Shown here one piece after another: positions 5,155 to 56,270 of a stretch of 64,000 nucleotides of DNA. Numbering within the stretch: the stretch's first letter is position 1; each line of letters begins with the position of its first letter. The notes under the pieces were generated by a model. It was not told the origin of the DNA. It saw only the letters and a list, made by a program, of their open reading frames with translations, and made no database searches. Source of the DNA: Comamonadaceae bacterium (lineage in GTDB: Bacteria; Pseudomonadota; Gammaproteobacteria; Burkholderiales; Burkholderiaceae_C); NCBI GenBank assembly GCA_027488985.1, contig JAIYAR010000017.1:53281-117280 (forward strand), written 5' to 3'. The position numbers and the translations under genes are program-made.

Positions 5155-5792
5155 TGACTTCCGTTTTTCCCTTGTTGGCGCAAGCCCGCCAATTGCCCTT
5201 GATTGCCATACTGCGTGGGCTCAAGCCTGAAGAAGCACTGGATATTGGACAGGCCTTGTATGGGGCTGGGTTCCGTACTCTCGAAGTGCCGCTGAATCGA
5301 CTCGGCGCTATCGAATGTATAGCTGCTCTCGCAGGTGGATTGGGCGCTGACGCTCTGATTGGCGGTGGAACCATGTTGACTGTGGCCCATGTGGAAGCCG
5401 TGCATGCAGCGGGTGGCCGCTTGATGGTTTCGCCCAATTGCGAACCGGCTGTGATCCGCCGCGCAGTGGAGTTGGGCATGCTGGCAGCCCCCGGTGTGGC
5501 CACCCCCACCGAGGCCTTTGCTGCCTTGGCAGCCGGCGCGCACGCATTGAAGCTGTTCCCCGCAGAGTCGCTGGGGCATGGCGGCTTGAAGGCGCTCAAG
5601 TCTGTTGTGCCCAGCGGCACAGACTTGTGGCCCGTGGGTGGCATTACTCCCGAGAGCATGGGGCCTTGGGTCAACGCCGGCGCCACCGGCTTCGGTATCG
5701 GCAGTCAGTTGTTTGCACCGGGTGTCACAGCGGCGCAGGTCTACGAGCGTGCCAGCGCTTATGTGCAGGCCTGGCAGGCTGCTACGGCCTAG
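5154..5792 (+). CDS. dgoA: 2-dehydro-3-deoxy-6-phosphogalactonate aldolase
   Basis: A 212-residue KDPG/KDPGal aldolase: class I (Schiff base) cleavage to pyruvate and glyceraldehyde 3-phosphate. Marks are PLIAILRG near residue 15, catalytic Glu in FRTLEVPLN, LIGGGTML, and the Schiff-base Lys in HALKLFPAE. I chose the ATG at 5154 that overlaps the dgoK stop, because it begins directly before the conserved region; an in-frame ATG at 5142 would add four residues inside dgoK. Residues 52-65 (AIECIAALAGGLGA) coincide with a copy of the dispersed repeat and include a rare ATA codon. The gene overlaps the end of convergent rsmI by 4 bases. Confidence 0.92.
   Translation: MTSVFPLLAQARQLPLIAILRGLKPEEALDIGQALYGAGFRTLEVPLNRLGAIECIAALAGGLGADALIGGGTMLTVAHVEAVHAAGGRLMVSPNCEPAVIRRAVELGMLAAPGVATPTEAFAALAAGAHALKLFPAESLGHGGLKALKSVVPSGTDLWPVGGITPESMGPWVNAGATGFGIGSQLFAPGVTAAQVYERASAYVQAWQAATA
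5307..5348 (+). repeat. Dispersed GCTAT-type repeat, copy A (inside dgoA)
   Basis: GCTATCGAATGTATAGC then TGCTCTCGCA: 23 of 27 positions agree with copy C in putA (16996), followed by GGGCGCT at the same distance. It is in frame and supplies dgoA residues 52-65. The protein length here equals that of E. coli DgoA as I recall it, so the segment replaces rather than lengthens the loop. Confidence 0.6.
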
Positions 5793-6712
5793 TCTTCGCT
5801 GCCAGAGCCCTGCTTGAGCAGCAAGGCGCGCTCGTACAGGGCGTTGCGCGGTTCGCCGGTGATGTCTGCTGCTAGCTTCACTGCCGATTTGAGTGGTAGT
5901 TGCTCTAGCAGCAGGCTTAGCACGCGGTCATCCGCCGTGCTGGCGGCTGCGGCCGCAGGGTGAATGACCAGCGCGAACTCGCCGCGCAAGCGGTTGGTAT
6001 CTGCGGCTAACCAGGCGCTGAACTCGCTCGCATCCACAGTGGCCACCTCTTCAAACTGCTTGGTCAGCTCCCGGCCTACCGTGACTTTGCGTGCGCCCAG
6101 AGGTGCAAGCGCTTTGGCCAGCGCTTCCAGCCGGTGTGGCGCCTCGAGCAAAACCACCGCGTCGGGCTGCGCGGCTATCCCCGCCACCTCGTTCGCGCGC
6201 TCGGTGGCCTTGGAAGACAGAAACCCCCGGAAAACAAAACCGCCATGGCCTTCGCCTGCAGCGACCAGTCCGGCCACTGAAATGGCGGTCACCACGCTGC
6301 TGGCCCCCGGCAGGGGAATAGCGCGCAAACCATGCGAGCGCACTTGCGCCACCAGCCGTGCGCCGGGGTCGCTCACGCCGGGTGTGCCGGCGTCGCTCAC
6401 ATAGGCTACGCGTTGGCCCTCCTGCAGGCGGGCGATCACCGTCTGCGCGGCTTCGGTTTCGTTGTGCTGGTGCACGGCCAGCAGGCCTGAGCCCGCTTTG
6501 TCGATGCCATAGGCGCGCAACATCTGCTGGGTGTGGCGTGTGTCTTCACAGGCGATGCAATCGACAAGCCCCAGCACATGCAGGGCGCGCAGGGTGATGT
6601 CGGCCAGATTCCCAATGGGCGTGGCGACCACATAGAGGCAGCCTTGCGGATAATGCTGCTCACCAGCCGCCTCCTTGGCGGCCTGGATGGCTGAAGAAAA
6701 AGACGCACTCAT
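5789..6712 (-). CDS. rsmI: 16S rRNA (cytidine1402-2'-O)-methyltransferase
   Basis: A 307-residue tetrapyrrole-methylase-fold enzyme that 2'-O-methylates C1402 in the ribosomal P site using SAM. Clear family motifs are LYVVATPIGNLADIT near residue 27, CEDTRHT near 55, and the SAM-site loop SDAGTPGVSDPGA near 105, with a C-terminal helix-turn-helix-like segment (LPLKSAVKLAADITGEPRN). Its start codon directly abuts that of divergent yraN, with no base between them. The rsmI/yraN-diaA-dolP arrangement matches the E. coli yraL-yraN-diaA-yraP region. Confidence 0.95.
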   Translation of the reverse strand: MSASFSSAIQAAKEAAGEQHYPQGCLYVVATPIGNLADITLRALHVLGLVDCIACEDTRHTQQMLRAYGIDKAGSGLLAVHQHNETEAAQTVIARLQEGQRVAYVSDAGTPGVSDPGARLVAQVRSHGLRAIPLPGASSVVTAISVAGLVAAGEGHGGFVFRGFLSSKATERANEVAGIAAQPDAVVLLEAPHRLEALAKALAPLGARKVTVGRELTKQFEEVATVDASEFSAWLAADTNRLRGEFALVIHPAAAAASTADDRVLSLLLEQLPLKSAVKLAADITGEPRNALYERALLLKQGSGSED

Positions 6713-7099
6713 ATGGGCTTACTTCCATCACGACCGGCCCGTGCCACCACCAAACAGGTCGGTGACGCGGCAGAAGAGCAGGCCTTGGGTTTTTTGCAAG
6801 CCAAAGGGCTGCAATTCGTTGCGCGCAATTATCGGACGCCGGGGCGCGGTGGCGGTGAAATCGACCTTATCCTGCGCGACAAAGACGGGACCCTGGTCTT
6901 TGTGGAGGTGCGCAAGCGCAACCGCACCGACCATGGCGGCGCCGCAGCCAGCATCGGGTATGTGAAGCAGCGGCGCATCATCTTTGCTGCCAGGCACTAT
7001 TTGTTGAATTTGCGCACCATGCCGCCCTGCCGGTTTGATGTGGTGGTGATCGATGGTGATGCAGTGGAATGGTTGCGCGGGGCGTTTGACGCATCCTGA
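6713..7099 (+). CDS. yraN: YraN family (UPF0102) endonuclease-like protein
   Basis: A 128-residue UPF0102 protein with the Holliday-junction-resolvase/restriction-endonuclease-like core: GEIDLI (acidic residues), FVEVRKR, then IGYVKQRRI and CRFDVVVID. These correspond to the E, D, E-x-K type catalytic pattern of the PD-(D/E)XK fold. Function in cells is unresolved in the family. The ATG at 6713 starts exactly at the end of rsmI's start codon, so its promoter must lie inside rsmI. diaA follows after 58 bases. Confidence 0.92.
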
Positions 7100-7157
7100 T
7101 ACAACCCTTAAGCGCGCTGTAACAAGGGCTTCTGGGGGGCACGGTATCATGCCGCCC

Positions 7158-7757
7158 ATGCTGGAACAACGTATACAACAACACTTTATCGACAGCGCGG
7201 ACCTCAAATACCAATCCGCGCAGGGCTTGAGTAAGCCCATCGCAGACGCTGTGCAAGCCATGCTGGCCTGTGTCACCAGTGGCGGCAAAGTGCTGGCCTG
7301 CGGCAACGGTGGCTCGGCAGCTGATGCCCAACACTTCGCTGCAGAATTTGTAGGTCGCTTCGAACGTGAACGGCCCGAGCTGGGCGCCATTGCGCTGACC
7401 ACCGACACTTCCATCATCACTGCCATTGCCAACGATTACGACTTCAACGTGATCTTCTCCCGGCAGGTGCGCGCCTTGGGTGCACCGGGTGATGTGTTGC
7501 TGGCTATTTCGACCAGTGGCAACTCTGCCAACGTGCTTGCAGCGATTGAAGCCGCGCACGAGCGCGAAATGGTGGTGGTCGGGCTCACAGGCAAAGGCGG
7601 CGGCAAGATGGCCCAAGTGCTGCGGGACACCGACGTGCACATTTCTGTGCCTCACGACCGCACGGCCCGTATTCAAGAAGTCCATATTCTGGCGCTCCAC
7701 TGTATTTGTGATGCAGTCGACGCCCAACTCCTCGGTGAACAGGAAACCCAATCATGA
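7158..7757 (+). CDS. diaA: SIS-domain protein, DiaA/GmhA family (DnaA initiator-associating protein)
   Basis: A 199-residue single SIS domain. [20 protein letters not shown] near residue 48 and [12 protein letters not shown] near 113 are the sugar-phosphate-binding loops shared by phosphoheptose isomerase GmhA and DiaA. Position between yraN and dolP favours DiaA, the tetrameric DnaA-binding protein that promotes replication initiation; GmhA activity cannot be ruled out from sequence. Start at 7158 fits the family N-terminus ([10 protein letters not shown]); an ATG at 7149, eight bases after GGGGGGC, is an alternative adding MPP. Its stop overlaps dolP (ATGA). Confidence 0.85.
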
Positions 7758-8386: not shown

Positions 8387-8392
8387 GTCTCT

Positions 8393-8450: not shown

Positions 8451-8451
8451 C

Positions 8452-9384
8452 TTACTTCAGCCGCTTGATCAGGCTGCTGGTGTCCCAGCGGTTGCCACCC
8501 ATGAGTTGCACGTCGGCATAGAACTGGTCGACCAGCGCCGTCACTGGCAGGCGGGCGCCATTGCGCTTGGCTTCGTCCAGCACCAGACCCAAGTCCTTGC
8601 GCATCCAGTCCACGGCAAAACCGAAATCAAACTTGTCTGCCACCATCGTCTTGCCGCGGTTGTCCATCTGCCAGCTTTGCGCCGCGCCTTTGCCGATGAC
8701 ATCCAACACCTGGCTCATGTCCAGCCCGGCACGCTGACCGAAAGCCACCGCTTCTGACAATCCTTGCACCAATCCTGCAATGCAGATCTGGTTCACCATT
8801 TTGGCCAGCTGGCCTGAGCCGCTGTCACCTAAGAGTGTGAACGCACGGGAAAACGCCATGGCCACCGGCTTGACCGCTTCAAAGGCAGTCGCGTCGCCAC
8901 CGCACATGACGGTGAGCATGCCGTTTTGCGCACCCGCCTGTCCACCGGAGACAGGGGCATCGATGAACTGCAAGCCACGCGCCTGGGCCACTGCGCTTAA
9001 CTCCCGCGCCACGTCGGCAGAAGCGGTGGTGTGATCCACAAAAATAGCTCCGGATTTCATGCCCGCAAAAGCGCCATCTGCACCCAAAACAACGCTGCGC
9101 AAATCCGCATCGTTACCGACGCAGCAAAACACAATGTCGGCGTTTAGCACAGCCTCACGCGGGGTGGCTGCGTGCGAATGGGCGCCCAGTTGGCTGCTGG
9201 CGCTCGCAAATTCTTCGCACCATGCTATGGATTTGGTAGCGGTACGGTTGTAGACCGCGACCTGGTGACCTGCGCGAGCCAGGTGCCCGGCCATGGGGTA
9301 GCCCATGACGCCCAAGCCTAGAAAGGCAACTGAGTAAGCGGGGGAGGGTTCGTAGGTTTTGTCGTTGATATTGGGCATGGTCAC
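8452..9384 (-). CDS. NAD(P)-dependent beta-hydroxyacid dehydrogenase (3-hydroxyisobutyrate / tartronate semialdehyde reductase family)
   Basis: A 310-residue two-domain oxidoreductase: Rossmann loop FLGLGVMGYPMAGHL at about 24-38, substrate-binding VDHTTA and DAPVSGG near 150, and catalytic Lys in GQLAKMVNQ near 198. The family includes 3-hydroxyisobutyrate dehydrogenase, GarR and GLYR-type succinic semialdehyde reductases; sequence alone does not fix the substrate. The start is either a GTG at 9384 overlapping the pilU stop (GTGA) or the ATG at 9378. The coupling to pilU is probably not functional. Confidence 0.85.
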   Translation of the reverse strand: MTMPNINDKTYEPSPAYSVAFLGLGVMGYPMAGHLARAGHQVAVYNRTATKSIAWCEEFASASSQLGAHSHAATPREAVLNADIVFCCVGNDADLRSVVLGADGAFAGMKSGAIFVDHTTASADVARELSAVAQARGLQFIDAPVSGGQAGAQNGMLTVMCGGDATAFEAVKPVAMAFSRAFTLLGDSGSGQLAKMVNQICIAGLVQGLSEAVAFGQRAGLDMSQVLDVIGKGAAQSWQMDNRGKTMVADKFDFGFAVDWMRKDLGLVLDEAKRNGARLPVTALVDQFYADVQLMGGNRWDTSSLIKRLK

Positions 9385-10517: not shown

Positions 10518-10537
10518 CAGAACACCTACCTTTCTGT

Positions 10538-11627: not shown

Positions 11628-12326
11628 ATGACGATGATTGCCGACAATCTCCACGCTGTTGCACAGCGTATTGCGCAAGCGTGCACCCAGTCCGGACGGC
11701 CGGTGGACAGTGTGCGCCTGCTGGCTGTTTCCAAGACCTTCGGGCCTGAGGCTGTGCAGCAGGCGTTTGATGCCGGGCAGCGCGCCTTCGGCGAAAACTA
11801 CATCCAGGAAGCGGTCGACAAGATCACTGCGCTCAGCGCCCTGCCCATTGAGTGGCACTGCATAGGCCCTATCCAGAGCAACAAGACCCGCCTGGTGGCC
11901 GAGCATTTTCAGTGGGTCCAAACGGTGGACCGGCTCAAAATTGCCCAGCGCCTGAGCGACCAACGCCCGCCGCACTTGCCGCCTTTGCAGGTGTGCATCC
12001 AGGTGAATGTGGACGGTGGCCCCACCAAGTCCGGCGTCAGCCCGCAAGAAGCGGTGGCGCTGGCACAGGCGGTGGCGGAACTGCCGCGCCTGCAGCTCCG
12101 GGGCATCATGTGCATCCCGGAGCCTGCTCCTGATTTTATAGCTGCTCGCGCAGTATTCATGAGCGCCAAGTCCGTATTTGATGCCATCGTGGCGCAAGGG
12201 CTGCCGCTCGATACGCTCTCCATGGGCATGAGTGGTGACCTGGATGCGGCGATTGCCGGCGGCAGCACCATGGTGCGGGTGGGCAGCGCGATTTTCGGGG
12301 CCCGCCCAACCCCGGCGACTGCTTAA
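11628..12326 (+). CDS. yggS: YggS family pyridoxal 5'-phosphate homeostasis protein (PLPBP)
   Basis: A 232-residue alanine-racemase-like barrel that binds PLP but has no known catalytic reaction; it buffers vitamin B6 and amino acid pools. The PLP Lys lies in LLAVSKTF (about residue 35), followed by FGENYIQEA, WHCIGPIQSNKTR, and MGMSGDLDAAI near the C-terminus with GSAIFGAR. The ATG at 11628 places the start at the conserved region; longer in-frame starts run into pilT. Residues about 169-185 (PDFIAARAVFMSAKS) are encoded by a dispersed repeat copy. The end overlaps the convergent binding-protein gene by 4 bases. Confidence 0.93.
   Translation: MTMIADNLHAVAQRIAQACTQSGRPVDSVRLLAVSKTFGPEAVQQAFDAGQRAFGENYIQEAVDKITALSALPIEWHCIGPIQSNKTRLVAEHFQWVQTVDRLKIAQRLSDQRPPHLPPLQVCIQVNVDGGPTKSGVSPQEAVALAQAVAELPRLQLRGIMCIPEPAPDFIAARAVFMSAKSVFDAIVAQGLPLDTLSMGMSGDLDAAIAGGSTMVRVGSAIFGARPTPATA
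12130..12184 (+). repeat. Dispersed GCTAT-type repeat, copy B (inside yggS)
   Basis: Contains TTTATAGCTGCTCGCGCA then ATTCATGAGCGCC and GTATTTGATGCC; it aligns along about 50 bases with intergenic copy E at 32995. It is in frame, reading FIAARA..MSA. It replaces the variable helix between CIPEP and LDTLSMGMS, and the spacing between those motifs is the same as in ordinary YggS proteins. Confidence 0.75.
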
Positions 12327-16350: not shown

Positions 16351-19300
16351 ATGTCCCAGTCCACCCGTTCTACCGCGTTCACCCCCGTCCCACCCCGTTT
16401 GCCCACGCCCTATCGCGCGGAAGACCATATCGTCTCCCACCGTTTGCAGGTGTTGGAAGGCGCGCTCGACTGGGCCCAAGCCGCCCGTAGCGCCGAGCCT
16501 TGGGTGCAAGCTGTTCGTGACAACCCACCACCCTTCTGGGCGATGGAAAGCCTGCTCAAGGAATACCCCATTTCCAGTGCTGAGGGCTTGGCCCTGATGC
16601 GCCTAGCTGAGGCGCTGCTGCGCGTGCCGGATGCCGAAACCGCGATTGCGCTCACCACCGACCAACTGGGCCGCGCTGACTTTGAGGCCAGCGGCGACAA
16701 GGTGCTCTCCCGCCTGTCCAGCACCGCCATTGCCCTGTCGAAACACTTTTTGCCGGATGCTCAGAACGAGCCCGGCTTGATGGCCAAGCTCGGCGCCCGC
16801 ACCGTGGTGGCCGCCACCTTGCGCGCGGTGCAGCTGCTGGGCCGTCAGTTTGTGCTCGGGCAGACCATGCCGGAGGCGATGAAAGAGGCCGATGTGTCTC
16901 GCAAAAAGGCCAATGTGCGCTTCAGCTACGACATGCTGGGCGAAGGCGCCCGCACCGACAAGGACGCGCTGCGCTACCTCAAGAGCTATGCGGATGCTAT
17001 TGAATTCATAGCTGCTCGCGCAAACAAGACGGGCGCTTTGGCCGAAAACGATGGCATTTCCATCAAGCTCAGCGCCCTGTACCCCCGCTATGAAGACGCA
17101 CACCGGCAAGCAGTCTTGGACGAGTTGGTGCCCCGCGTCTGGACGCTGTGCGAGGCCGCGGCTGCCGCCAACATCAACCTCACCATCGACGCTGAAGAGG
17201 TGGACCGCCTGGAGCTGTCACTCGAAGTTCTGGAGGCTCTGCTGGTGAAAGTGGCTGCGCACTGCCCGCAGTGGGCCGGACTGGGGCTGGCCATGCAGGC
17301 TTACCAGACCCGTGCGCAGGAGTTGATCGAGCACATCACTCTGCTGGCCCGCAAATACAAAATCAAGCTGATGTGCCGCCTGGTCAAAGGCGCTTATTGG
17401 GATGCCGAAGTCAAGCGCGCCCAAGAGCTGGGCCTGCCGCACTACCCCGTGTTCACCCACAAGCACCACACCGATGTGTCCTACCTGGCCTGCGCCCGTG
17501 CGCTGCTGGCGGTGCCCGATGCGATTTACCCCCAGTTCGCCGGCCACAACGCCGGCACTATCGCCGCCATCCTGCAAATGGGCGCCAAAACGGGCGCGCC
17601 CTTTGAGCTGCAGCGCCTGCACGGCATGGGCGAGGGCATCTTCCGCGAAGTGCTCAAAAACCCCTTGGTCGCTTGCCGCGTCTACGCCCCGGTGGGCGCC
17701 CACAAAGATTTGCTGGCCTACCTCGTGCGCCGCCTGCTCGAGAACGGCGCCAATTCCAGCTTTGTGCACCAACTTGCCGACGAGTCGGTGGGCATGAGTG
17801 AACTGCTGATTTCGCCTTTGCGCCTGGAGCCACACCCCAGCCTGCCGTTGCCGGCCGACCTGTTCGGCAAGCACCCCGGCAGCCGCGCCAACAGCACCGG
17901 GCTGGACCTGACGGTAGCCGACATGCGCGATCCACTGCTGGCCGCGTTGCAGACCGCGCCCGTGCCAGTGGTGCCGGAGTTTGATGTCAAAAACATCCCC
18001 GGCGCTTATGCAAGCTGCGCGAGCAGCTATCAAAAGTGGAGCAAAGTGCCGGTGGAAGAGCGCGCTGCCACCCTGCGCCGCGCGGCTGATGCGCTGCAAA
18101 TCGCCATGCCGCAGTTCTGCGCGCTCTTGGTGAAAGAAGCCTTCAAGACCTGGGGCGACGCGGTCAGCGAAGTGCGTGAGGCGGTGGACTTTTTGCGCTA
18201 CTACGCCGACGAGGCGCAGCGCATCATGCAGCCCATTTCGTGCCCTGTCGTCGCTAACGCGCAAGTGGGTTTCCAGTATGGCGTGACCGGCGAAACTAAC
18301 ACCTTGCGTCTCACGTCACGAGGCGTGTGGGTGTGCATCAGCCCGTGGAACTTCCCGCTGGCCATCTTCATGGGCCAGGTCGCTGCCGCACTGGCTACCG
18401 GCAACACTGTGCTGGCCAAGCCGGCTGAGCAAACGCCCGGAGTGGCAAAAGCCGCCGTGGATTTGATGGTCGCGGCCGGTGTGCCTGCAGATGCGCTGCA
18501 GCTCTTGCACGGCGCTGGCGAGACCGTAGGCGCAGCACTCGTCGCTCAGCCCGGCGTGGCCGGTGTGGTGTTCACCGGCTCCACCCAAGTGGCCAAAATC
18601 ATCCAGCGCGCGCTGGCCGCCAAAGACGGCCCTATCGTCCCGCTGATTGCCGAGACCGGCGGCATAAACGCCATGCTGGTCGACAGCAGCGCGCTGCCCG
18701 AGCAGGTGGTGGACGCTGTGGTGATGAGCGCCTTCCGGTCCGCCGGCCAACGCTGCTCCGCGCTGCGCTTGCTGGTGGTGCACAGCGCGATTGCCGATGG
18801 CGTTATCGAGATGCTGCAGGGCGCCGCCCAAGAGCTGCGCATTGGCAACCCGGCGGACTTGGCAACCGACCTCGGACCGGTGATTGACCGCGAGGCGTTT
18901 GACAACATCCAACGCCATATCAGTCGCCTGAAAAATGAGTCAAAGGTGCTGGTCGGAGCGGGCGCGGCAACGCGTTTTGCGCAGGTCAAGGAGGAGCCCG
19001 CAACGCGGGCGGGGGACACGGAGCAAAACGCGTTGTCGCGTCCGCTCATAGCTAACCTGATCGCGCCCCATGCGTTTGAGGTGGAAAGCATCGCGCAAGT
19101 GAAGGCCGAAATCTTCGGCCCCGTGCTGCAAGTGGTGCGCTGGGGCACGGGGGATACCAGCAACCCCGAGGACGTGATCCACCAGATCAACGCCCTGGGC
19201 TACGGCCTGACGCTGGGCATCCAGACCCGCATCGACAGCCGGGCCCAAGCACTGGCCGCTGCTGCGCACGTGGGCAACATCTACATCAACCGCAACATGA

Positions 19301-19467
19301 TTGGCGCGGTGGTGGGTGTGCAGCCCTTCGGTGGCGAAGGTTTGTCAGGCACCGGCCCCAAAGCCGGTGGCCCGCACTACCTGTACCGCTTCTGCGCCGA
19401 GCAAACTGTGACGGTGAACACCACTGCGGCAGGGGGAAATGCGGCGCTGCTGGCGAGTTTCCATTGA
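16351..19467 (+). CDS. putA: Bifunctional proline dehydrogenase / L-glutamate gamma-semialdehyde dehydrogenase
   Basis: A 1038-residue PutA oxidising proline to glutamate with FAD then NAD+. The N-terminal PRODH barrel (to about residue 500) shows DGISIKLSALYPRY, KLMCRLVKGAYWDAE and AGHNAGTIAAI; the C-terminal P5C dehydrogenase shows SPWNFPLAIFMG, catalytic Glu768 (AETGG) and Cys802 (SAGQRC). It lacks the N-terminal ribbon-helix-helix of trifunctional E. coli PutA, so it should not repress itself. The ATG at 16351 is preceded by AGGAG at 5 bases. Three repeat-derived segments are embedded: about residues 216-233, 551-563 and 871-897. Confidence 0.97.
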   Translation: MSQSTRSTAFTPVPPRLPTPYRAEDHIVSHRLQVLEGALDWAQAARSAEPWVQAVRDNPPPFWAMESLLKEYPISSAEGLALMRLAEALLRVPDAETAIALTTDQLGRADFEASGDKVLSRLSSTAIALSKHFLPDAQNEPGLMAKLGARTVVAATLRAVQLLGRQFVLGQTMPEAMKEADVSRKKANVRFSYDMLGEGARTDKDALRYLKSYADAIEFIAARANKTGALAENDGISIKLSALYPRYEDAHRQAVLDELVPRVWTLCEAAAAANINLTIDAEEVDRLELSLEVLEALLVKVAAHCPQWAGLGLAMQAYQTRAQELIEHITLLARKYKIKLMCRLVKGAYWDAEVKRAQELGLPHYPVFTHKHHTDVSYLACARALLAVPDAIYPQFAGHNAGTIAAILQMGAKTGAPFELQRLHGMGEGIFREVLKNPLVACRVYAPVGAHKDLLAYLVRRLLENGANSSFVHQLADESVGMSELLISPLRLEPHPSLPLPADLFGKHPGSRANSTGLDLTVADMRDPLLAALQTAPVPVVPEFDVKNIPGAYASCASSYQKWSKVPVEERAATLRRAADALQIAMPQFCALLVKEAFKTWGDAVSEVREAVDFLRYYADEAQRIMQPISCPVVANAQVGFQYGVTGETNTLRLTSRGVWVCISPWNFPLAIFMGQVAAALATGNTVLAKPAEQTPGVAKAAVDLMVAAGVPADALQLLHGAGETVGAALVAQPGVAGVVFTGSTQVAKIIQRALAAKDGPIVPLIAETGGINAMLVDSSALPEQVVDAVVMSAFRSAGQRCSALRLLVVHSAIADGVIEMLQGAAQELRIGNPADLATDLGPVIDREAFDNIQRHISRLKNESKVLVGAGAATRFAQVKEEPATRAGDTEQNALSRPLIANLIAPHAFEVESIAQVKAEIFGPVLQVVRWGTGDTSNPEDVIHQINALGYGLTLGIQTRIDSRAQALAAAAHVGNIYINRNMIGAVVGVQPFGGEGLSGTGPKAGGPHYLYRFCAEQTVTVNTTAAGGNAALLASFH
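16996..17050 (+). repeat. Dispersed GCTAT-type repeat, copy C (inside putA)
   Basis: Clearest core of the family: GCTATTGAATTCATAGC, a 5-bp inverted repeat around TGAATTC, then TGCTCGCGCA and GGGCGCT. In frame as AIEFIAARA..TGA at residues 216-229, between the PutA motifs RYLKSYA and DGISIKL. It contains ATA and other codons unusual for this gene. Confidence 0.8.
18001..18038 (-). repeat. Dispersed GCTAT-type repeat, copy D (inside putA, inverted)
   Basis: Reverse complement reads TTTTGATAGCTGCTCGCGCA then GCATAAGCGCC, matching copies B, C and G. On the putA strand it encodes GAYASCASSYQKW in the linker between the PRODH and P5CDH domains, where sequence is free to vary. Confidence 0.75.
18962..19040. 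repeat. Double-hairpin element embedded in putA
   Basis: Outer arms 18963-18982 and 19021-19040 match at 18 of 20 positions as reverse complements (CGCGGCAACGCGTTTTGC on the left). Between them lies a second hairpin, GCCCGC-AAC-GCGGGC (18997-19011). It is in frame and encodes a segment with the pieces FAQVKEEPATRAG and DTEQNAL inside the P5CDH domain, just before a variable strand ahead of FEVESIAQVKAEIFGP. No gain of function is apparent. Confidence 0.65.
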
Positions 19468-19547: not shown

Positions 19548-20312
19548 CTAAATTGGCGCAGTTGGGTTAGGGTTAGGGTTAGGGTTAGGGTTAGGGTTAG
19601 GCGTTGGACTAGGTGTCGGGTTAGAAGTGACAGCAGCGGGCACGATGGATGCTTTTCCCACACTAGAAACATTGTTCCCACTGATCGTGATGGACTGCCG
19701 TAAATCCGGCAATTCAAGGCTGGCCAGGGGGGCTGTCTCGCGGGGCAGGGTGTTGTTGTCCTGCACAACTACGGTTTGACCCACGCCCAAGCCCACACAA
19801 CCGGCCCGGTTGCAGACCTCAATTTCATCGAGCTCCCCAGAGACGCTTACCGACCCATCCGGGTTGTAGACACTGCTGAAGCCCGACCCCCGGATACCGA
19901 TGGTCGAGGCGGAGGTTTGCACTTTGTAGTTGTCCCGGTTGCGCTTGCCAATCAGTCCGGTAATGGCCCGCAAGCCTCCGCGTACAAAGTTCACCAGAAA
20001 AGTGTCCTGAGAGCCGTCTTTGGCGTCTACATAACGCTGAATGACCAACTGGCTATCGGGGCTGAGGGACATGACGCCACCGTCGGTGAACTTCACCTGC
20101 GCGCGCCCTTGGGGACCTGTGCTAAGCACGTCACCGCTTTCAACAGAGTCGCCTTTGGCAAGTGGGGTGTTCTTGCCGGACCGCTGCACCTGGACTTCAC
20201 CAAAAGTGAATTGCGCGACCCCCGCCGCTGCATGGCCATCGAGCGACACGCTGCCAAGCAGGACCAGGACTGTGAGGCAGGCCAGTGCGCGTGGGGAAAG
20301 TAGAGTTCGCAT
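19548..20312 (-). CDS. FecR-domain exported protein with Pro-Asn repeat tail
   Basis: A 254-residue protein with a Sec signal peptide (cleavage near DGHA-AA) and a FecR domain at about residues 35-150 (GDSVESGDVLSTGPQGRAQV, then LRAITGLIGKRNRDNYKV and TIGIRGSGF). There is no membrane anchor, so it is periplasmic or secreted rather than an anti-sigma factor of the FecR type. A Cys pair (CNRAGC) lies near 168. The tail is a Thr/Pro segment followed by Pro-Asn repeats encoded by tandem hexamers. It follows the TPR/beta-barrel gene by 23 bases, so the two are probably one transcript. Function unknown. Confidence 0.82.
   Translation of the reverse strand: MRTLLSPRALACLTVLVLLGSVSLDGHAAAGVAQFTFGEVQVQRSGKNTPLAKGDSVESGDVLSTGPQGRAQVKFTDGGVMSLSPDSQLVIQRYVDAKDGSQDTFLVNFVRGGLRAITGLIGKRNRDNYKVQTSASTIGIRGSGFSSVYNPDGSVSVSGELDEIEVCNRAGCVGLGVGQTVVVQDNNTLPRETAPLASLELPDLRQSITISGNNVSSVGKASIVPAAVTSNPTPSPTPNPNPNPNPNPNPTAPI
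19564..19599. repeat. Six perfect GGGTTA hexamer repeats in the fecR-like gene
   Basis: Six uninterrupted GGGTTA units, identical to the vertebrate telomere hexamer, followed by a degenerate GGCGTT unit. Read on the minus strand they encode Asn-Pro dipeptides at the protein C-terminus. Because the unit is six bases, slippage would change tail length without shifting the frame. Confidence 0.95.
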
Positions 20313-26318: not shown

Positions 26319-27734
26319 ATGGCCAATGCTCGAACCCGCACCAGTACTGAAGCTCTTGCCATGCTGGGAGATCGCGTTCTCCTCAGCTATATCGTCCTCT
26401 CCGCGGTAGCGGCTGTAATTTTGGGCTTTTCCTTTGTGGACAGCGGATTGGCCATAGGCGCCACGGTAGTGCTGCTGGGAGCCGCGATCGGCGTATTTGC
26501 TGTTGCTCGTTACACCGTGTTGAGCCGCTTTGTGTTGGCATTTATTCTGGTGGCTTTCGTTGCGCTGCACATTCAGTTGGCGCGTGGCATGGAAGAGATG
26601 CACTTCGGTGTGTTCGTGTCACTCGCACTCTTTTTGACCTACCGCGATTGGCGCGTCATAGTGTTCGGAGCCGTTTTGTTCGCAGTTCACCACGTGGCCT
26701 TTGACCGACTGCAGGCGGCAGGTTTCGGCTTGTATTGCATCAGCGAGCCCGACTTCGGTCGTATCGTGATCCATGCGGTTTACGTCATCATCCAGACGAG
26801 TGTGGAGTCGGTCATGGCGATCAACATGGCGCGTGCTGCCCGTGAGGGGGACGAGTTGCGGGTGCTCGTGGCTCAAGTCAATCGTGATGCCACCATTGAC
26901 CTGAATGTCCATGACGTAAAAACCACCACCAAAGGCGGTGACATGTTGCGCGAGACCTTGGCCCGAATGGAAGTCGCGGTCGCAGCGGTGCGCAGCAACT
27001 CTGCAAGCATCGAGGTGGCTTGCTCTGAAATCGCCAGCGGCAACCAAGACTTGAGCAACCGGACAGAGCAGACGGCTGCCAATTTGCAGCGTACCTCCAG
27101 CAGCATGACCCAGCTGACCAGTGCGGTCCAACAGTCCGCAGAAAATGCGCGGGAGGCCAACCAACTGGCCATGACGGCCAGTACCACCGCCACCAAGGGT
27201 GGCGAAGTGGTGAGCCAAGTGGTCCAGACCATGCAGGGCATCAACGAAGCCAGCCGAAAGATCAGCGACATCATCAGCGTGATCGACGGCATCGCTTTTC
27301 AGACCAATATCCTTGCCTTGAATGCGGCGGTGGAGGCCGCACGTGCCGGCGAGCAAGGCCGTGGCTTTGCCGTGGTGGCAAGCGAGGTCCGCTCACTCGC
27401 TGGCCGAAGCGCAGAAGCCGCAAAGGAAATCAAGACCCTCATCAACGCCAGTGTTGAGCGCGTGGAACAAGGCAGCGCACTGGTGAACCATGCAGGGGAG
27501 ACCATGACGGAAGTCGTGACCAGCATCCGCCGTGTGACCGACATCATGAGTGAGATCAGCGCCGCCAGTACCGCTCAGGCCCAAGGCGTCAGCGAGGTCA
27601 GTGAAGCGGTCACGGAGATGGACCAGGCGACACAACAGAACGCGGCGCTGGTGGAAGAGATGGCAGCGGCAGCCGGCAGCTTGCGTAGCCAGGCCCAAGA
27701 GCTGGTACAGACGGTTTCGGTGTTTCACCAATAA
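26319..27734 (+). CDS. Methyl-accepting chemotaxis protein with multi-pass membrane sensor
   Basis: A 471-residue receptor in which the N-terminal 190 residues form about six membrane segments instead of a periplasmic sensor. Within it are conserved-looking polar positions ([36 protein letters not shown]), suggesting an intramembrane or cofactor-binding sensor. The C-terminal half is a standard signalling domain ([17 protein letters not shown]). There is no HAMP that I can recognise and no WESF tail (ends VSVFHQ). GTAAGGATGAGCC precedes the ATG. Stimulus unknown. Confidence 0.9.
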
Positions 27735-32994: not shown

Positions 32995-33056
32995 TTGCTA
33001 TCTATTTCATAGCTGCTTGCGCATATTTCATGGGCGCTAGAGCCCTATTCTGGCAT
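32995..33056 (+). repeat. Dispersed GCTAT-type repeat, copy E (intergenic)
   Basis: The most complete intergenic copy: TTTTGCTATCTATTTCATAG, then CTGCTTGCGCA, TTCATGGGCGCTAGAGCCC and TTCTGGCATG. It fills the 67 bases between the stop codons of the convergent PhyH and EAL genes almost exactly. It aligns along its whole length with copy H in ycnI. Confidence 0.85.
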
Positions 33057-39680: not shown

Positions 39681-39824
39681 GGCGGGGATGATGCCACTGA
39701 TACCCCCCGCCTATCCATCCTTCACGGTGAGCCACATCGCTGCTCAGCCAGCTGGCGGCAAGGTTCAGCCGTTAGGATTCAATACGTTCCTCAATGAAAA
39801 GCGCTCCTAGGGGCTATCTTGAAC

Positions 39825-39882
39825 GCTACTTTTTTGATAGCTTTCTACCCATATTTTCTAAGCGCAGAAGCTTGATTTGGCT
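39825..39882 (+). repeat. Dispersed GCTAT-type repeat, copy F (upstream of marR-type gene)
   Basis: A diverged copy: GCTACTTTTTTGATAGC, then CCCATATTTTCTAAGCGC, AGAAGCTTGATTTGGC. The tail reaches the TTG start region of the MarR-type gene, so the repeat contributes its 5' leader. Less well conserved than copies C, E and H. Confidence 0.6.
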
Positions 39883-40425
39883 CTTAATCTTTTGAAAAAA
39901 ACCGCTTTACCTACCAAATCACCTGCCGCCAAGCTCAAGTCGGCATCGGCGCGCGTGCGCAAAGTTGACCTCCCTGAGGCTGGTCCGGTAGAGCCTGTGG
40001 ACACTAGTTATTTGCGCACGCTGGTGGGCTACAACGCCCGGCGCGCGTCACTCGCGATCATCGAGACCTTCATGGTGCGCATGGCGCCCTACGACCTGAA
40101 GGTGGTGGATTTCTCGGTGCTCTCCTTGGTAGCCCACAATCCGGGCATCACCTCCCGCCAGCTGTGCGCAGCGCTCAACGTGCTGCCGCCCAACCTCGTG
40201 GGTTTGATAGCTGCCTTGGAGCGGCGGGGCCTGATTGAGCGTTTGCCCCACCCGAGCGACGGCCGGGCCATGGGGGTGCACCTCACGCCCCAAGGTATGG
40301 AGCTGATGGTGCAAGCCGAGAAAACCGCATTCGACCTGGAGATGGACGCCACCTCCCGTTTGACGGATGCAGAGCGCAAAACCCTGATCCGCCTGCTGCA
40401 AAAGGTCTACACCCCGGTCGACTGA
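39877..40425 (+). CDS. MarR family transcriptional regulator
   Basis: A 182-residue MarR protein with a basic, low-complexity N-terminal extension of about 35 residues. The winged helix core is clear: VLSLVAHNPGITSRQLCAAL, LPPNLVGLIAALERRGLIER and the wing HPSDGRAMGVHLT. No ATG is available; TTG at 39877 or TTG at 39892 (MKKTALPTK) must be used, so the start is uncertain. It lies 1.0 kb from the hydroxycinnamate operon and is the natural candidate to bind the palindrome at 41432-41454, like MarR-type regulators of ferulate and coumarate genes. Confidence 0.85.
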   Translation: MALNLLKKTALPTKSPAAKLKSASARVRKVDLPEAGPVEPVDTSYLRTLVGYNARRASLAIIETFMVRMAPYDLKVVDFSVLSLVAHNPGITSRQLCAALNVLPPNLVGLIAALERRGLIERLPHPSDGRAMGVHLTPQGMELMVQAEKTAFDLEMDATSRLTDAERKTLIRLLQKVYTPVD

Positions 40426-47030: not shown

Positions 47031-48695
47031 ATGAACAACGTTGCCATCGTGAACGAATTACCCGTTTCCGTCATTGGAGAGAGTGGCACCCCTGAGCCCG
47101 CGCCGTATCAGCGCACCCGCATCACTGCGCTGGAAAATATGACTGTGCGCTCCAGCTTGTGGCTCGCATTCGCCAGCGTGTTGTTGGGCGCAGTGGTCAT
47201 TGGAGTCTTTTCCTTGTTCCAAATGGGACGCTTGAATGCGTCGACCAAGGCCATTTACGAGCAGGAATACGCAGCCGGCCAAGCAGCCGAAGAGGCGCGC
47301 GGCCTGATCTTGCGTGCCAGCCGGGCACAGACCCAGTTGCTGACGGCCACTACGGCTGCAGAACGCAATACGCTCGGTGCAGCCATTGAATCCAGTCTGT
47401 CTGATATCGGAAAGCGCTTGGACGTTATCAAAGGGCTGTCTGATTCCGAGGAAACCACCGCGACCAGCCAGCAATTGATCGACGGTATGGCAAGTTGGTC
47501 CAAGCGCCAGCGTGCTTACATCACCCTCGTTAAAGAGCAACCTCTGGACCTGATGCAGATGAGCACTGATGTGCCGACAGAGGACGCCCGGCTTCTCAAT
47601 GACACCCGTAAGCTGGAAAAGCTGGTGGATGCCTTGGTGGAACAGCGTGCGCAGTCTGCCAAGGCAACCATTGAAAATGCAGGTCAGATTTACCAATCCT
47701 CCCAGATGTGGGTGGTCGGCATCATGGTGCTGCTGTTGATTCTGTCCCTGGTGATTAGCGCTTGGGTTACGGGGCGCCTCTCCCGTCAATTAGGCGGTGA
47801 GCCGGCCTACGCCAAGTCCATTGCCAGCCGTATTGCAGATGGCGATCTGACGATGCAAATCCAGCTCGCACCCAAAGACAATGACAGCCTGCTGTACTCC
47901 TTGCGTGACATGCAGATGAAGTTGTCGGAGACCATGCGCGACATCGCGGATAGCTCCAAGCAAGTCGCAAATGCCTCACGCGAGATTTCTATGGGGAACC
48001 TGGACTTATCACAGCGTACTGAGCAACAAAGCGCCTCTCTGGAAAAAACAAGCACCAATGTGGAGCAAATGGCGTCATTGACAAGGCGCTATGCCGAAAG
48101 CGCTGCCGAGGCAGCACAACTCTCCGGCAATGCCAGCCGCTCGGCCCGATTGGGAGGTGAAGTGGTCGCTGATGTGGTCAGCACCATGGAGAAGATCAGC
48201 AAGAGCACCCAAGCCATTCACGGCAACATAAGCGTGATTGAAGGCATCGCGTTTCAGACCAACATCTTGGCGCTCAATGCGGCGGTTGAAGCGGCGCACG
48301 CCGGTGAGCAGGGGCGTGGGTTCGCGGTAGTGGCGCAAGAGGTGCGATCGCTCGCGGAACGCAGTGCCAAGGCTGCCCGTGAGATTAATGCACTGATTGA
48401 AGAGTCCACTCGCCAAGTCAAAGAAGGTGCGGAGCTGGCCAGCAAAGCCGGCCAGACCATCAGTGAAATGGCGGGTACGGTTCAACAAACCAGCGCCGTG
48501 ATGGAAGAGATTTCCGGTGCCTCGGCCCAACAAAGTCATGGGATTGAAGAGATCAACCGGGCGGTTACCCAGCTGGACGACAGCACCCAGCAGAACGCTG
48601 CACTGGTGGAAGAAGCCGCTGCCGCAGCGCAATCCTTGGATGAACAGGCGCAGTCGCTGGATCAGTTGGTCGGGCGCTTCCACTTGCGCAGTTAA
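47031..48695 (+). CDS. Methyl-accepting chemotaxis protein (Tar-like topology)
   Basis: A 554-residue receptor. An N-terminal cytoplasmic stretch of about 40 residues precedes TM1 ([20 protein letters not shown]), then a four-helix-bundle periplasmic sensor, TM2 near 225-245, HAMP and signalling domain. The signalling domain differs from the other five receptors here ([12 protein letters not shown] with His for the usual Arg at the tip; [16 protein letters not shown]). No WESF tail; ends GRFHLRS. AGAGGGAAAGT precedes the ATG. A strong terminator follows. Confidence 0.93.
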
Positions 48696-50809: not shown

Positions 50810-50811
50810 GC

Positions 50812-51930: not shown

Positions 51931-52008
51931 GTTCCATAGAACGCAAAAGGCCAGTGTACGGTAGACACTTGCAACCGTCTGGCGCCGAAACCCAGCGAAA
52001 ATGCCGGC

Positions 52009-53082
52009 ATGAAACTCGCAACCTATCAGGACGGTTCCCGCGATGGCCAATTGGTCGTTGTCTCCCGGGATCTGAGCCAGGCGCACTACGCCACCCACAT
52101 CGCCAACCGCCTGCAGCAGGTGCTGGACGACTGGAACTACCTCTCCCCAGCGCTGCAAGACATTTACAACCAGCTCAATCAGGGGCGGGCGCGGCATGCG
52201 TTTCCATTCGATCCTGCCCAATGCATGGCTCCCTTGCCGCGCGCTTACCAATGGCTGGATGGTTCCGCGTACCTCAACCACGTGGAGCTGGTGCGTCAGG
52301 CACGGGGTGCTGAGATGCCTGAAAGCGCCCAATCGGACCCCTTGATGTACCAGGGTGGCAGCGATGACCTTGCCGGACCCAACGCAGAGATTGTGTGCGC
52401 CAGCGAGGCTTGGGGCGTGGACTTCGAGGCCGAGTTGGCGGTCATCACTGGCGACGTGCCCATGGGCTGCGCGTCGGACCGCGCGTTGGATGCTGTGCGC
52501 CTGCTGGCATTGGTCAATGACGTGACCCTGCGTAATTTGATTACGGATGAGTTGGCCAAGGGCTTCGGCATTGTGCAGAGCAAACCTGCCACCGCGTTTG
52601 CACCGGTGGTCGTCACGCCCGACGAGCTGGGCGAGGCCTGGGCGCGGGGTCGGGTGCACCTGCCAGTGCAATGTATTTGGAATGGCCGCAAGGTCGGCAT
52701 GTGCGAGGCCGGAAGCGACATGCACTTCCACTTCGGTCAATTGATTGCTCATGCGGCCAAAACCCGCCGCTTGCGGGCCGGCTCCATCATCGGTTCCGGC
52801 ACCGTCAGCAACAAAGGCGTGGCCCGCAAAAACCGCACGGAATGGCCCAATGGCTACAGCTGTATTGCCGAAAAGCGTGCCATGGAAACCTTGCAGGACG
52901 GCCAGCCCAGCACTGAGTACATGAAGTTCGGTGACACCATCCGCATCGAAGTCAAAGGTCGGGACGGAGGCAGCGTGTTCGGCGCGATCCACCAGGAAGT
53001 GGTGCCGCTGGACGTGCGGTCCCGTGGGACACCGGTCTCCTCTGCCCCCGAGGCGGAGCCTGCATCCGGTCTTTCCACTTAA
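52009..53082 (+). CDS. Fumarylacetoacetate hydrolase family protein
   Basis: A 357-residue FAH-fold enzyme. Metal-binding acidic residues are in ASEAWGVDFEAELAVITGDV near residue 140, followed by LVNDVTLRNL, GFGIVQSKPATAFAPVVV, GSIIGSGTVSNKG and FGDTIRIEV. The family hydrolyses or decarboxylates 2,4-dioxo acids in aromatic catabolism; members of this long type are often called 2-keto-4-pentenoate hydratase or fumarylacetoacetase-like. A true tyrosine-pathway fumarylacetoacetase is possible but no homogentisate dioxygenase is adjacent. Divergent from the DUF3108 genes. Confidence 0.88.
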   Translation: MKLATYQDGSRDGQLVVVSRDLSQAHYATHIANRLQQVLDDWNYLSPALQDIYNQLNQGRARHAFPFDPAQCMAPLPRAYQWLDGSAYLNHVELVRQARGAEMPESAQSDPLMYQGGSDDLAGPNAEIVCASEAWGVDFEAELAVITGDVPMGCASDRALDAVRLLALVNDVTLRNLITDELAKGFGIVQSKPATAFAPVVVTPDELGEAWARGRVHLPVQCIWNGRKVGMCEAGSDMHFHFGQLIAHAAKTRRLRAGSIIGSGTVSNKGVARKNRTEWPNGYSCIAEKRAMETLQDGQPSTEYMKFGDTIRIEVKGRDGGSVFGAIHQEVVPLDVRSRGTPVSSAPEAEPASGLST

Positions 53083-53083
53083 A

Positions 53084-53136
53084 TTGCACTTGGCGCCCGT
53101 ATTCATTGCGCGAGCAGCTCTGTTTTTGATAGCAAA
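53084..53136 (-). repeat. Dispersed GCTAT-type repeat, copy G (upstream of fghA, inverted)
   Basis: Reverse complement reads TTTGCTATCAAAAACAGAGC, then TGCTCGCGCA, ATGAATACGGGCGC. It occupies the whole 56-base gap between the FAH hydrolase stop and the fghA ATG at 53139, so it is the 5' leader of fghA; no Shine-Dalgarno sequence is visible there. Confidence 0.75.
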
Positions 53137-53138
53137 TT

Positions 53139-54005: not shown

Positions 54006-54014
54006 GCGGCAGCG

Positions 54015-54623
54015 TCAGGTGGCAGCCGCCACCTGCTGCACAAAAGTCTTGATGCCGCGCAGCATCATCTCAATCGCCACGGACACCAGCACCAAGCCCA
54101 TCAGCCGCTCGGCGGCGACCACCAGCCGGTCGCCGATGATGCGTTGAATGCGTTCTGCCGACACCAGCACCACCGCGCTGACCAGCATGGTGACGCACAG
54201 CGCGCCTATCCACTCCATTCGGCGGTCGGGCTGCTGGGATACCAGCAACAGTACGGTCGCCAGTGCAGAGGGGCCCGCCACCGCTGGAATGGCCAAGGGA
54301 ACAATCAGAGGCTCGGTTTTGATTTCGGCCTCTGCGGTGGACGCCGGCGGGAACACCATGCGCAGCGCGATCAAAAACAGAATCACACCGCCGCCGATTT
54401 GGAGCGATAGCTCGCTCAGGTTCATCACCCGCAAAAAGCTCTCGCCCACAAACATGAAGGTCAACAGCAAGGTGAATGCGATCAGGATTTCCCGCAGGAT
54501 CACCTTGGGCCGGCGCTCAGGCGCCACATGTTTGAGCGCGTTGGCAAATATTGGAATATTGCCAATCGGGTCGGTAATCAGGATCAGCAGGATGGTCGCA
54601 GAGGCGAAGGTGTAATTCATCAT
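54015..54623 (-). CDS. marC: MarC family integral membrane protein
   Basis: A 202-residue, six-segment membrane protein of the MarC/NAAT family. Family marks: ILLILITDPIGNIPIF near residue 12, the paired segment LQIGGGVILFLIALRMVF near 70 and PLAIPAVAGPSALATVLLL near 100. E. coli MarC was once linked to multiple antibiotic resistance but its function is unknown. Two adjacent ATG codons (54623, 54620) are possible starts; longer in-frame starts upstream do not encode a plausible N-terminus. Confidence 0.9.
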   Translation of the reverse strand: MMNYTFASATILLILITDPIGNIPIFANALKHVAPERRPKVILREILIAFTLLLTFMFVGESFLRVMNLSELSLQIGGGVILFLIALRMVFPPASTAEAEIKTEPLIVPLAIPAVAGPSALATVLLLVSQQPDRRMEWIGALCVTMLVSAVVLVSAERIQRIIGDRLVVAAERLMGLVLVSVAIEMMLRGIKTFVQQVAAAT

Positions 54624-54702
54624 GGCGCGTAACGCCGGTGGTGCCGGCGTGGTCGAAACAGCGCCCGAGAATACCAGCCCCCCGGCGTTTGAACGGGTTG
54701 AT

Positions 54703-55062
54703 TCAGGCGCCCTCAAGGGAGCTTTGGCAATCAATGCAGCGTTCGGCATCCGGGGTGGCGCGCAACCGGGCCTCGGGGATGGTGGTGCCGCAGGCCACGC
54801 AATGGCCGTACGTGCCCAGCTCCAGCCGGTGCAGCGCGGCGTCAATGCGTCGCAGCTCGGCCTTGTCATGCTCATCCAGCGCGAACTCCAAGTCACGTGC
54901 GGTGTTGGTTTGCGCCTGGCTGTCTTCATGTCCGGCAAAGTGAGCGGCGGATGCCAGTGCCCGGGTGGGTTCGCCGCCGCGCAGCTGGTTCAGCCGGGTG
55001 CGCAGAGCTTCCCGCTGCTGCAGCAACGATGTTTGGTAGCTGTGAAGGTCAGTGTGTGTCAT
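54703..55062 (-). CDS. DksA/TraR family C4 zinc-finger protein
   Basis: A 119-residue protein: coiled-coil N-terminal half (LHSYQTSLLQQREALRTRLN and ELRRIDAALHRLELG) and a four-cysteine zinc finger CVACGTTIPEARL...CIDC near 88-112. Family members insert the coiled coil into the RNA polymerase secondary channel; DksA works with ppGpp. At 119 residues it is shorter than housekeeping DksA (about 150) and probably is a paralogue. The acidic tip typical of DksA (D-x-x-D-x-A) appears as LDEHDKAEL. Divergent from the copper module. Confidence 0.85.
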   Translation of the reverse strand: MTHTDLHSYQTSLLQQREALRTRLNQLRGGEPTRALASAAHFAGHEDSQAQTNTARDLEFALDEHDKAELRRIDAALHRLELGTYGHCVACGTTIPEARLRATPDAERCIDCQSSLEGA

Positions 55063-55186
55063 GGTGTTTTCCGGATAGGTGGACTTTCCATGGTCTGCCT
55101 GCTGGTGGAAAAGTCTTTGACGCTGATCAAGTATTCCCTAGTGTGTGAGACCCTCCGGAATGGGCGCTGGTCCATAATCGCGCTCC

Positions 55187-55564
55187 ATGGCCTTCCTCCA
55201 AACCCTGCGCGAAGCACGCTCCATCGTCCGTTGGATGTTGGTGTGGTTTGTTTTGTCCATCGGGGTGGCGGTCGCGGCACCTGTGGTCCATCCCCAGGGC
55301 TTGACCTTGATCTGCACGACCGCAGGCAACGTCCAATGGGTGTCGGACGCCACCACTGACCCCGCGGAAGGACTGCCCTTGGGCATGGCCACCCACACGC
55401 TGGATTGTGTGATGTGCCTCCCCTCCGGCGCAGCACCGGTGCCGGCTTTCTCCCCCGACTTGCCCGCCGCGGTCCGCTCCGCCGGGCCGCTTGCGCGACC
55501 GGCACTCCTGGTTGCCGGTATCGCAGAAGCACCCTCTGCGCGCGGCCCCCCGGCCTTGTTCTGA
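55187..55564 (+). CDS. DUF2946 family protein (copper-associated)
   Basis: A 125-residue protein with an N-terminal membrane/signal segment (IVRWMLVWFVLSIGVAVAAPVV) and a mature part with His and Cys residues including HTLDCVMCLPSGAAP, the conserved C-x-x-C-L-P motif of DUF2946. These small proteins are commonly encoded next to YcnI, PCuAC and TonB-dependent copper receptors. The C-terminal 35 residues are Pro/Ala-rich. It heads a module with ycnI and the PCuAC gene; a 160-base gap to ycnI may hold a hairpin or a second promoter. Confidence 0.8.
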   Translation: MAFLQTLREARSIVRWMLVWFVLSIGVAVAAPVVHPQGLTLICTTAGNVQWVSDATTDPAEGLPLGMATHTLDCVMCLPSGAAPVPAFSPDLPAAVRSAGPLARPALLVAGIAEAPSARGPPALF

Positions 55565-55724
55565 GAGCTGGGTTCAGCGCATCCCGCTGATCTTTTGCCC
55601 CGGCTGATGTGCAACTCCGGTCATTGCCGGAGCTTTGCGCCACTTGCCTGTTTTTCTCCCTTTTGCTGTTGTTCAGTCCTGTCGCGCCCATAGGTCGAGG
55701 CAGGGCACATTTACCGAGGTATCT

Positions 55725-56270
55725 ATGCATCGTTTTGCTACTTATTTTGTAGCTGCTTGCGCACTATCCATGAGCGCTGGATCTGCTTTTTCTCATGTAA
55801 CCCTGCAGGATCAGGCCGCCGCGGCCGGTGCGGGCTACCGGGGCGTGCTCCGGGTCGGTCATGGCTGCGCTGGAGCATCCACCACATCCATCACCGTCAC
55901 AATTCCTGCAGGCTTCAATGGCGCCCAGCCCTTGGTGAAAGCGGGGTGGAACGTGAGCACCAAAATCGGCAAACTGGAACAGCCCTATGAATCGCACGGC
56001 ACCAAATACACCGAAGGCGTTCAGGAAATCACCTGGACCGCCAAGGGGGCTGAAAATGCACTCCCCGATGCTTTCGCCGACGAGTTCACCTTCCGTGGTA
56101 CGACACCCAAAAAGCCCGGCGCCTTGTGGTTCAAGGTTGTGCAGGGTTGCGAGAAGGGCAGTAACGCCTGGATCGAAATCCCCGCTGCCGGTCAGGATGC
56201 GCACGGCCTGACATCCCCCGCCGCGCGTCTGGATGTGCTTGATGTACAAGCCGCCGGACACGCCCACTGA
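55725..56270 (+). CDS. ycnI: YcnI/DUF1775 family periplasmic copper-binding protein
   Basis: A 181-residue exported protein. Signal peptide residues 1-23 with predicted cleavage SAFS-H, which exposes an N-terminal His (HVTLQDQ) as in YcnI proteins, where it helps bind Cu(II). The DUF1775 body shows GYRGVLRVGHGCAGASTTSITVTIP, a Trp in KAGWNVS and ITWTAKG, and FRGTTPK. It is followed 19 bases later by the PCuAC gene. The signal peptide from about residue 4 to 23 is encoded by dispersed repeat copy H. The C-terminus ends HAH, possibly another metal site. Confidence 0.9.
   Translation: MHRFATYFVAACALSMSAGSAFSHVTLQDQAAAAGAGYRGVLRVGHGCAGASTTSITVTIPAGFNGAQPLVKAGWNVSTKIGKLEQPYESHGTKYTEGVQEITWTAKGAENALPDAFADEFTFRGTTPKKPGALWFKVVQGCEKGSNAWIEIPAAGQDAHGLTSPAARLDVLDVQAAGHAH
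55734..55795 (+). repeat. Dispersed GCTAT-type repeat, copy H (encodes the ycnI signal peptide)
   Basis: TTTTGCTACTTATTTTGTAG, then CTGCTTGCGCA, TCCATGAGCGCTGGATCTG and TTTTTCTCAT. It aligns end to end with intergenic copy E (32995-33056). It is read in the same frame as copies A, B and C, here giving FVAACALSMSA, a hydrophobic stretch suitable for a signal-peptide core. Confidence 0.85.

Follow-up and report, generated by a model that had tools for sequence, protein, structure and literature searches.

The 64,000-nucleotide window analyzed here (G000:C14:53281-117280) belongs to the 3.56-Mb draft genome of a Rhodoferax-type freshwater bacterium. Among its genes, which include those for a DgoA-like aldolase, YggS and PutA, copies of one dispersed DNA motif are found both inside coding sequences and between genes (Table 1). 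An earlier note on this DNA had listed eight copies of a 40-60 bp repeat and had proposed that it invades reading frames, in one fixed frame, by recombination of the repeat. Seven of the eight copies were confirmed at or near their places, the one at 39825 is doubtful, and a ninth, degenerate copy was added. The copy at the start of the YcnI-like gene makes up most of a signal-peptide-like N-terminal stretch of the protein when it is read from ATG 55725; this start was chosen by inference, the simple gene caller having placed it downstream.

Table 1. Copies of the motif in the window, with profile scores and surroundings
Feature	Position	Strand	Score (bits)	Context
Motif copy	5306-5363	+	30.1	Sense frame 0 in KDPG/KHG aldolase gene (DgoA-like, 5154-5792)
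Degenerate motif copy	9185-9241	-	15.6	Sense frame 0 in 3-hydroxyisobutyrate dehydrogenase-type gene; absent from the earlier list
Motif copy	12124-12185	+	49.4	Sense frame 0 in YggS (Ala_racemase_N, 11634-12326)
Motif copy	16993-17054	+	43.8	Sense frame 0 in PutA (16351-19467)
Motif copy	17980-18045	-	42.1	Antisense frame 2 in PutA
Motif copy, best in the window	32995-33055	+	56.2	Intergenic, between convergent genes (PhyH-type ending 32992, EAL-type ending 33060)
Doubtful copy	39822-39887	+	7.7	Under the threshold used
Motif copy	53079-53136	-	39.3	Between fumarylacetoacetate hydrolase-type gene (3' end overlapped by 4 bp) and esterase-type gene
Motif copy	55735-55788	+	44.1	Sense frame 0 if the YcnI-like (DUF1775) gene is read from ATG 55725

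A profile built from 78 seeds was used to scan 864 kb of one genome (the window and 800 kb of its own genome), which is the sample for the in-depth results. At a threshold of at least 12 bits there were 133 matches (131 once overlaps were removed), and none when the same 864 kb was scanned once after Markov shuffling and once reversed. The core was present 37 times exactly and 51 times with one mismatch in the sample (reversed pattern, 0 and 0), and TAGCTGCTNGCGCA with at most one mismatch was found 350 times in the whole genome, vs. 3 times for the reversed pattern. Extrapolation from the sample gives roughly 500 copies per genome. The repeat is therefore a genuine dispersed family, as had been claimed.

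The motif is longer than first described: information extends from offset about -17 to +50 around TAGCTGCT, that is ~67 bp. To the left of the core lie TGCTAY and an A/T tract; RTAGCTGCTnGCGCA comes next, followed by an A/T patch, GnGCGCTAG, GGC, another A/T tract and a short A-rich end. The layout can be summarized as TGCTAY, A/T tract, TAGCTGCTnGCGCA, A/T patch, GnGCGCTAG and A/T tract, with rough dyad symmetry; the core and the right block form an imperfect 12-bp inverted repeat. Columns -6 to -4 hold A or T in 98-99% of 103 copies, with A and T alternating and few TpA steps. A/T content peaks near offsets -5, 16, 38 and 48, and the tracts recur every ~21-22 bp. Covariation was absent from both hairpins in 50 copies, the dependence between columns was almost wholly between neighbors, and no Rfam family matched in the window. 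An RNA hairpin is rejected on the absent covariation and the lack of an Rfam family in the window. Taken together with the A/T-tract pattern, the missing covariation reads as recognition of duplex DNA, by shape as well as by letters.

By the calls of a simple purpose-made gene caller, which are rough, 64 of the 131 copies fall entirely within coding sequence, 25 run across a gene end and 42 are intergenic. Instead of the single fixed frame proposed earlier, two frames are preferred: 29 of the 64 coding copies lie in sense frame 0 and 27 in antisense frame 1, with 8 in the other frames. The forward frame is also not the only one free of stops, because most of the 38 intergenic copies scoring 30 bits or more lack stops in sense frame 0 (31 copies) and in antisense frame 1 (29). 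Simulated copies lacked stops in 67% of cases for sense frame 0 and 72% for antisense frame 1. For sense frame 1 and antisense frame 2 the figures were 45% and 43%, yet of the 44 strong coding copies these frames held only 0 and 1 (P = 4e-8). Avoidance of stops is therefore out as the sole cause of the two frames; since the latter pair of frames is often open but holds almost no strong copies, the acceptability of the encoded residues, besides stops, sets the frame.

The 67 copies outside genes lie near 3' ends, at a median distance of 3 bp from a stop codon. Their neighboring genes are co-directed in 43 cases, convergent in 20 and divergent in only 4, although divergent pairs account for 21% of the intergenic length. 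The proximity to stop codons, the inverted repeat and the share of convergent locations would suit an RNA element or transcription terminator that falls in genes by chance. We consider this very improbable, because about half of the copies are in genes, in both orientations, and those outside show no strand preference relative to gene direction (26 opposite, 17 same), in addition to the lack of covariation and of Rfam matches noted above.

At four coding sites, one each in YggS and TruB and two in PutA, orthologues aligned without a gap in 207 of 220 comparisons, with the motif present or not. For YggS all 30 loci were ungapped; the nine that carry a graded motif (21-52 bits) come from the nine genomes richest in copies, and 21 others are without it. 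The YggS segment at the motif keeps ancestral-looking residues. Among 80 named PutA loci, the motif reached at least 12 bits in 36 at site 16993-17054 (ungapped in 76, gaps in 4) and in 39 at site 17980-18045 (ungapped in 77, gaps in 3). The 24 same-genus TruB loci were all ungapped, with a motif of at least 12 bits in seven and a graded match strength, and all 6 TruB loci from other families were gapped, by 1-7 residues. No match reached 12 bits in 91 kb from motif-poor relatives (27 loci) or in 49 kb from other families (13 loci). Since orthologues without the motif share the ungapped segment, the motif seems to have been written into existing sequence by base changes rather than to have jumped in; origin in place holds at the four coding sites.

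The unchanged protein length noted earlier for YggS is thus upheld and extends to PutA and TruB. In DgoA, matches to the three nearest relatives span 211 or 212 of the 212 residues, the motif site itself having been compared only as far as the relative G007, which is ~90% identical to the window genome. Invasion of reading frames is not borne out, and orthologues that share the segment without the motif, which the earlier note had named as what would speak against it, come close to describing what we found.

Copies are stable between relatives. When the 120 copies of at least 20 bits were compared with G007, 101 were alignable and 19 could not be judged; 99 of the 101 had a partner of at least 18 bits, one had decayed without a gap and one fell in an 87-bp gap. 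In the reverse direction 112 of 138 G007 copies were alignable, of which 108 had a partner of at least 12 bits and four did not. Divergence in 66 copies, a set mildly biased by the requirement of a partner scoring 20 bits or more, was 6.1% in high-information columns, 16.5% in low-information columns and 13.7% in the flanks. In 35 coding copies taken with no partner condition, four-fold sites had diverged at 13 of 177 positions (7%) in high-information columns and at 31 of 132 and 20 of 76 in other columns; outside the motif in the same genes the figure was 965 of 3333 (29%; vs. 13 of 177, P = 6e-12). The high-information columns are held at the DNA level.

The copies do not form a family tree. 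Among 103 copies of at least 30 bits no subfamilies were found: identity peaked at 79.7% for the closest pair, where ten column shuffles reached 78.3%, and the closest pairs had unrelated flanks (20-42% identical). The spread of pairwise identity was slightly above that of shuffled copies (sd 0.060 vs. 0.053), which may be due to the dependence between neighboring columns. With no subfamilies and 99 of 101 alignable copies shared with the relative, neither the invasion nor the recombination of a repeat proposed earlier finds support. What stands of the earlier account is that the repeat forms a dispersed family, that many of its copies are translated, in a limited set of frames, and that length is unchanged at the coding sites; the invasion, the single frame and the repeat recombination are not supported.

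These results bear on two explanations that involve copying. The first is a mobile element inserted in frame, such as a miniature inverted-repeat transposable element, a repetitive extragenic palindrome (REP) spread by a REP-associated tyrosine transposase (RAYT), or an element of the Rickettsia palindromic type. Hundreds of dispersed copies, many of them coding, and the hairpin potential would fit it. However, no residues were gained at coding sites, the flanks are unrelated, subfamilies are lacking, and the 101 aligned copies include one clean gap-type difference. A Y1-type transposase family member occurs in 20 of 25 genomes, motif-poor ones included; the window genome has one Y1_Tnp match. 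Insertion is rejected at the coding sites tested, on the ungapped orthologues and the lack of subfamilies, and the mobile-element explanation, which is very improbable, is there close to refuted. The second, templated replacement, supposes that a short single-stranded cellular copy anneals to partly similar places and overwrites them with length unchanged. The length-neutral coding sites agree with it, as does an information content that is large for base-by-base assembly. It is nevertheless improbable, given the absence of subfamilies or near-identical copies, the ancestral-looking residues retained in replaced segments such as that of YggS, the match strength graded among species in YggS and TruB, and the very low turnover between relatives.

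Known repeat families share some features with the motif and differ in others. Rickettsia palindromic elements are small repeats in reading frames that add peptide by insertion; the motif likewise lies in reading frames, but at the tested sites adds no residue. REPs and bacterial interspersed mosaic elements associated with RAYT are imperfect palindromes preceded by a GTAG or GGAG-like tetranucleotide, and many copies here are also imperfect palindromes after such a tetranucleotide. In contrast to those, the motif shows no hairpin covariation, has about half of its copies in genes and has no clear tie to a Y1 transposase. According to PMC3110155, the BRE repeat of Betaproteobacteria, Comamonadaceae included, is ~90 bp long, GC-rich (69%) and tandem, with some coding copies and 4 copies in R. 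ferrireducens. Both repeats occur in Comamonadaceae and are partly coding, but BRE is longer, GC-rich, tandem and present in few copies.

The nearest relatives of PutA are in Comamonadaceae bacterium OS-4 (96%; AP026970.1), Rhodoferax sp. UBA4409 and Rhodoferax bucti. In 25 genomes of the same genus there were 6 to 387 core matches, with at least 48 in nine. A model of the window genome's own type, applied with strict filters and at most 42 scored candidates, matched in 48 of 120 genomes of the family (mostly one per genus), with at least 27 matches in 29. Genome G148, from another genus, has 87 exact core matches (vs. 0), and 30 of the 87 gave a variant consensus; a codon score whose training data came from another genome suggests that ~11 of these 30 are coding. 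Thus, the spread is patchy within the family, with a variant in the one other genus looked at.

The longest motif-free stretch is a 40-kb prophage (G000:C3:109000-149000; portal, capsid, tape measure and integrase by Pfam) with 0 copies. The density of copies was lower where the relative gives no coverage (13 in 148 kb vs. 118 in 716 kb, P = 0.027), a comparison that used 0.94 Mb of the relative and in which some uncovered stretches may not be accessory. One copy used as query matched none of 50,697 phage records, and a single one of 72,556 plasmid records, a Rhodoferax antarcticus plasmid. This plasmid (NZ_CP019241.1) carries, within 32 kb, 7 copies that score 20 bits or more, a higher density than in the chromosome sample, and several adjoin toxin-antitoxin and transposase genes.

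The motif seems to have arisen in place, is constrained at the DNA level, occurs in genes and at their ends in frames that the protein dictates, varies between genera and is missing from the prophage, and this is the pattern of uptake sequences. Cores of known uptake sequences are 9-12 bp long, and uptake signal sequences (USS) have A/T-rich flanking tracts. For the DNA uptake sequences (DUS) of Neisseriaceae and the USS of Pasteurellaceae, a preferred reading-frame orientation is reported in PMC2346458, and dialects in related species in PMC3630211. Uptake sequences number hundreds to thousands of copies, genic and intergenic, with dialects and a favored orientation in frame; comparable traits here are the great excess of one motif, genic copies without a change in length and the variant in another genus. 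By analogy, the motif appears to behave like DNA uptake sequences but is far longer (~67 bp), uses two frames about equally, one per orientation, and shows no gene-end concentration.

We therefore propose that the motif may be a tag by which DNA of the cell's own kind is recognized for uptake during natural transformation, built in place and kept by DNA-level constraint, and give this a probability of about 0.5. Recognition by a protein, uptake and drive are the parts that we infer. Copies would arise and persist at each site through base changes and constraint, with no copying of an element; a pilus or surface DNA receptor would prefer motif-bearing fragments, homologous recombination would put motif-bearing alleles into the chromosome, and drive would pile up copies wherever proteins tolerate them. 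A drive limited by protein tolerance would leave copies in two alanine-rich frames and at sites just behind stop codons. The fuller claim is put forward tentatively, as slightly short of an even chance: a new and by far the longest uptake tag, a ~67-bp duplex with phased A/T tracts and genus dialects in Comamonadaceae, whose drive has altered the codons and residues of numerous proteins as the family evolved.

Several observations weigh against an uptake tag. Its ~67 columns are several times the length of known cores. ComEC was found in 117 of 120 family genomes, motif-rich or not, so the competence genes do not track the motif and ComEC is uninformative as a marker. Coding copies are not concentrated at gene ends (2, 3, 11, 9, 8, 9, 5, 7, 5 and 5 of the 64 by gene decile), a bias reported for Pasteurellaceae uptake sequences that does not define all DUS, and the spacing of copies was no different from random, with no even spacing found. 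The test for a recombination footprint was mixed, weak and confounded. Four-fold divergence to G007 was 0.281 within 500 bp of a copy, 0.416 at 4-8 kb and 0.394 beyond 8 kb, a strong raw gradient that held against circular shifts in three genome pairs. The gradient, however, mostly follows GC content at third codon positions (partial correlation 0.164, P = 0.011, with this content, codon score, length and protein identity held). Discordant trees were not in excess near copies (70 of 239 vs. 54 of 180), and there was no gradient within genes. As a separate observation, in the motif-rich genome G043 the ComEC family match is split in three pieces (G043:C1:1836740-1837544).

The main rival is a binding site for a chromosome-organizing or nucleoid protein that bends or wraps DNA, with each site selected for chromosome structure. 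Dyad symmetry and phased A-or-T tracts suit a DNA-bending protein, and the motif is untied to competence genes. Orientation along G007:C1 is also clustered in blocks of hundreds of kb (34 runs vs. 50.7 expected among the first 100 of 136 exact sites, P = 0.00045). In the own-genome sample this clustering was not significant, and a replichore-polar orientation of the Chi or KOPS kind was absent from G007 over those 100 sites and 0.94 Mb of skew, where the blocks ignore the GC-skew switch near 2.51 Mb. The patchiness within one genus and the heavy load that ~500 sites, about half of them in proteins, would place on sitewise selection further argue against this explanation, and we judge it unlikely, at about one chance in four.

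If the motif is an uptake tag, self-DNA recognition would extend to a large environmental family, tags could span six helical turns, and dozens of genera with and without the motif would be available to probe drive vs. protein constraint. If it is a chromosome-organizing site, both its length and its copy number would be unusually large. In both cases, what looks like a repeat invading genes is better accounted for by a DNA signal that was written into genes already there, a point of importance when these genomes are annotated or used to estimate rates.

In the searches made, the literature held no account of the motif as an uptake tag and no description of uptake sequences in Comamonadaceae. 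Parts of the motif family very probably appear in PMC5217627. That paper lists the pair ATAGCT(N)22CAAAAG in Polaromonas naphthalenivorans and GCTTAT(N)5AAGCG in Acidovorax ebreus, mostly intergenic (81% and 94%), with no function given there, and a record 140 motif pairs in Rhodoferax ferrireducens. In our own alignment the Polaromonas pair fits motif offsets -1 to 4 and 27 to 32 and the Acidovorax pair 11 to 16 and 22 to 26, and both also fit the G148 variant. Relative to the passages on these pairs, the present analysis adds the whole motif, its coding use and its in-place origin.

Two further features of the window were recorded. Just 3' of PutA, at 19564-19611, ~6.5 GGGTTA units resemble the vertebrate-type telomere repeat, in a tract too short for judgement. 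Repeats with 60-83% DNA identity (families D1-D3) mark several related genes at 26319-27734, 47031-48695 and 58862-63991, which are probably chemoreceptor paralogues.

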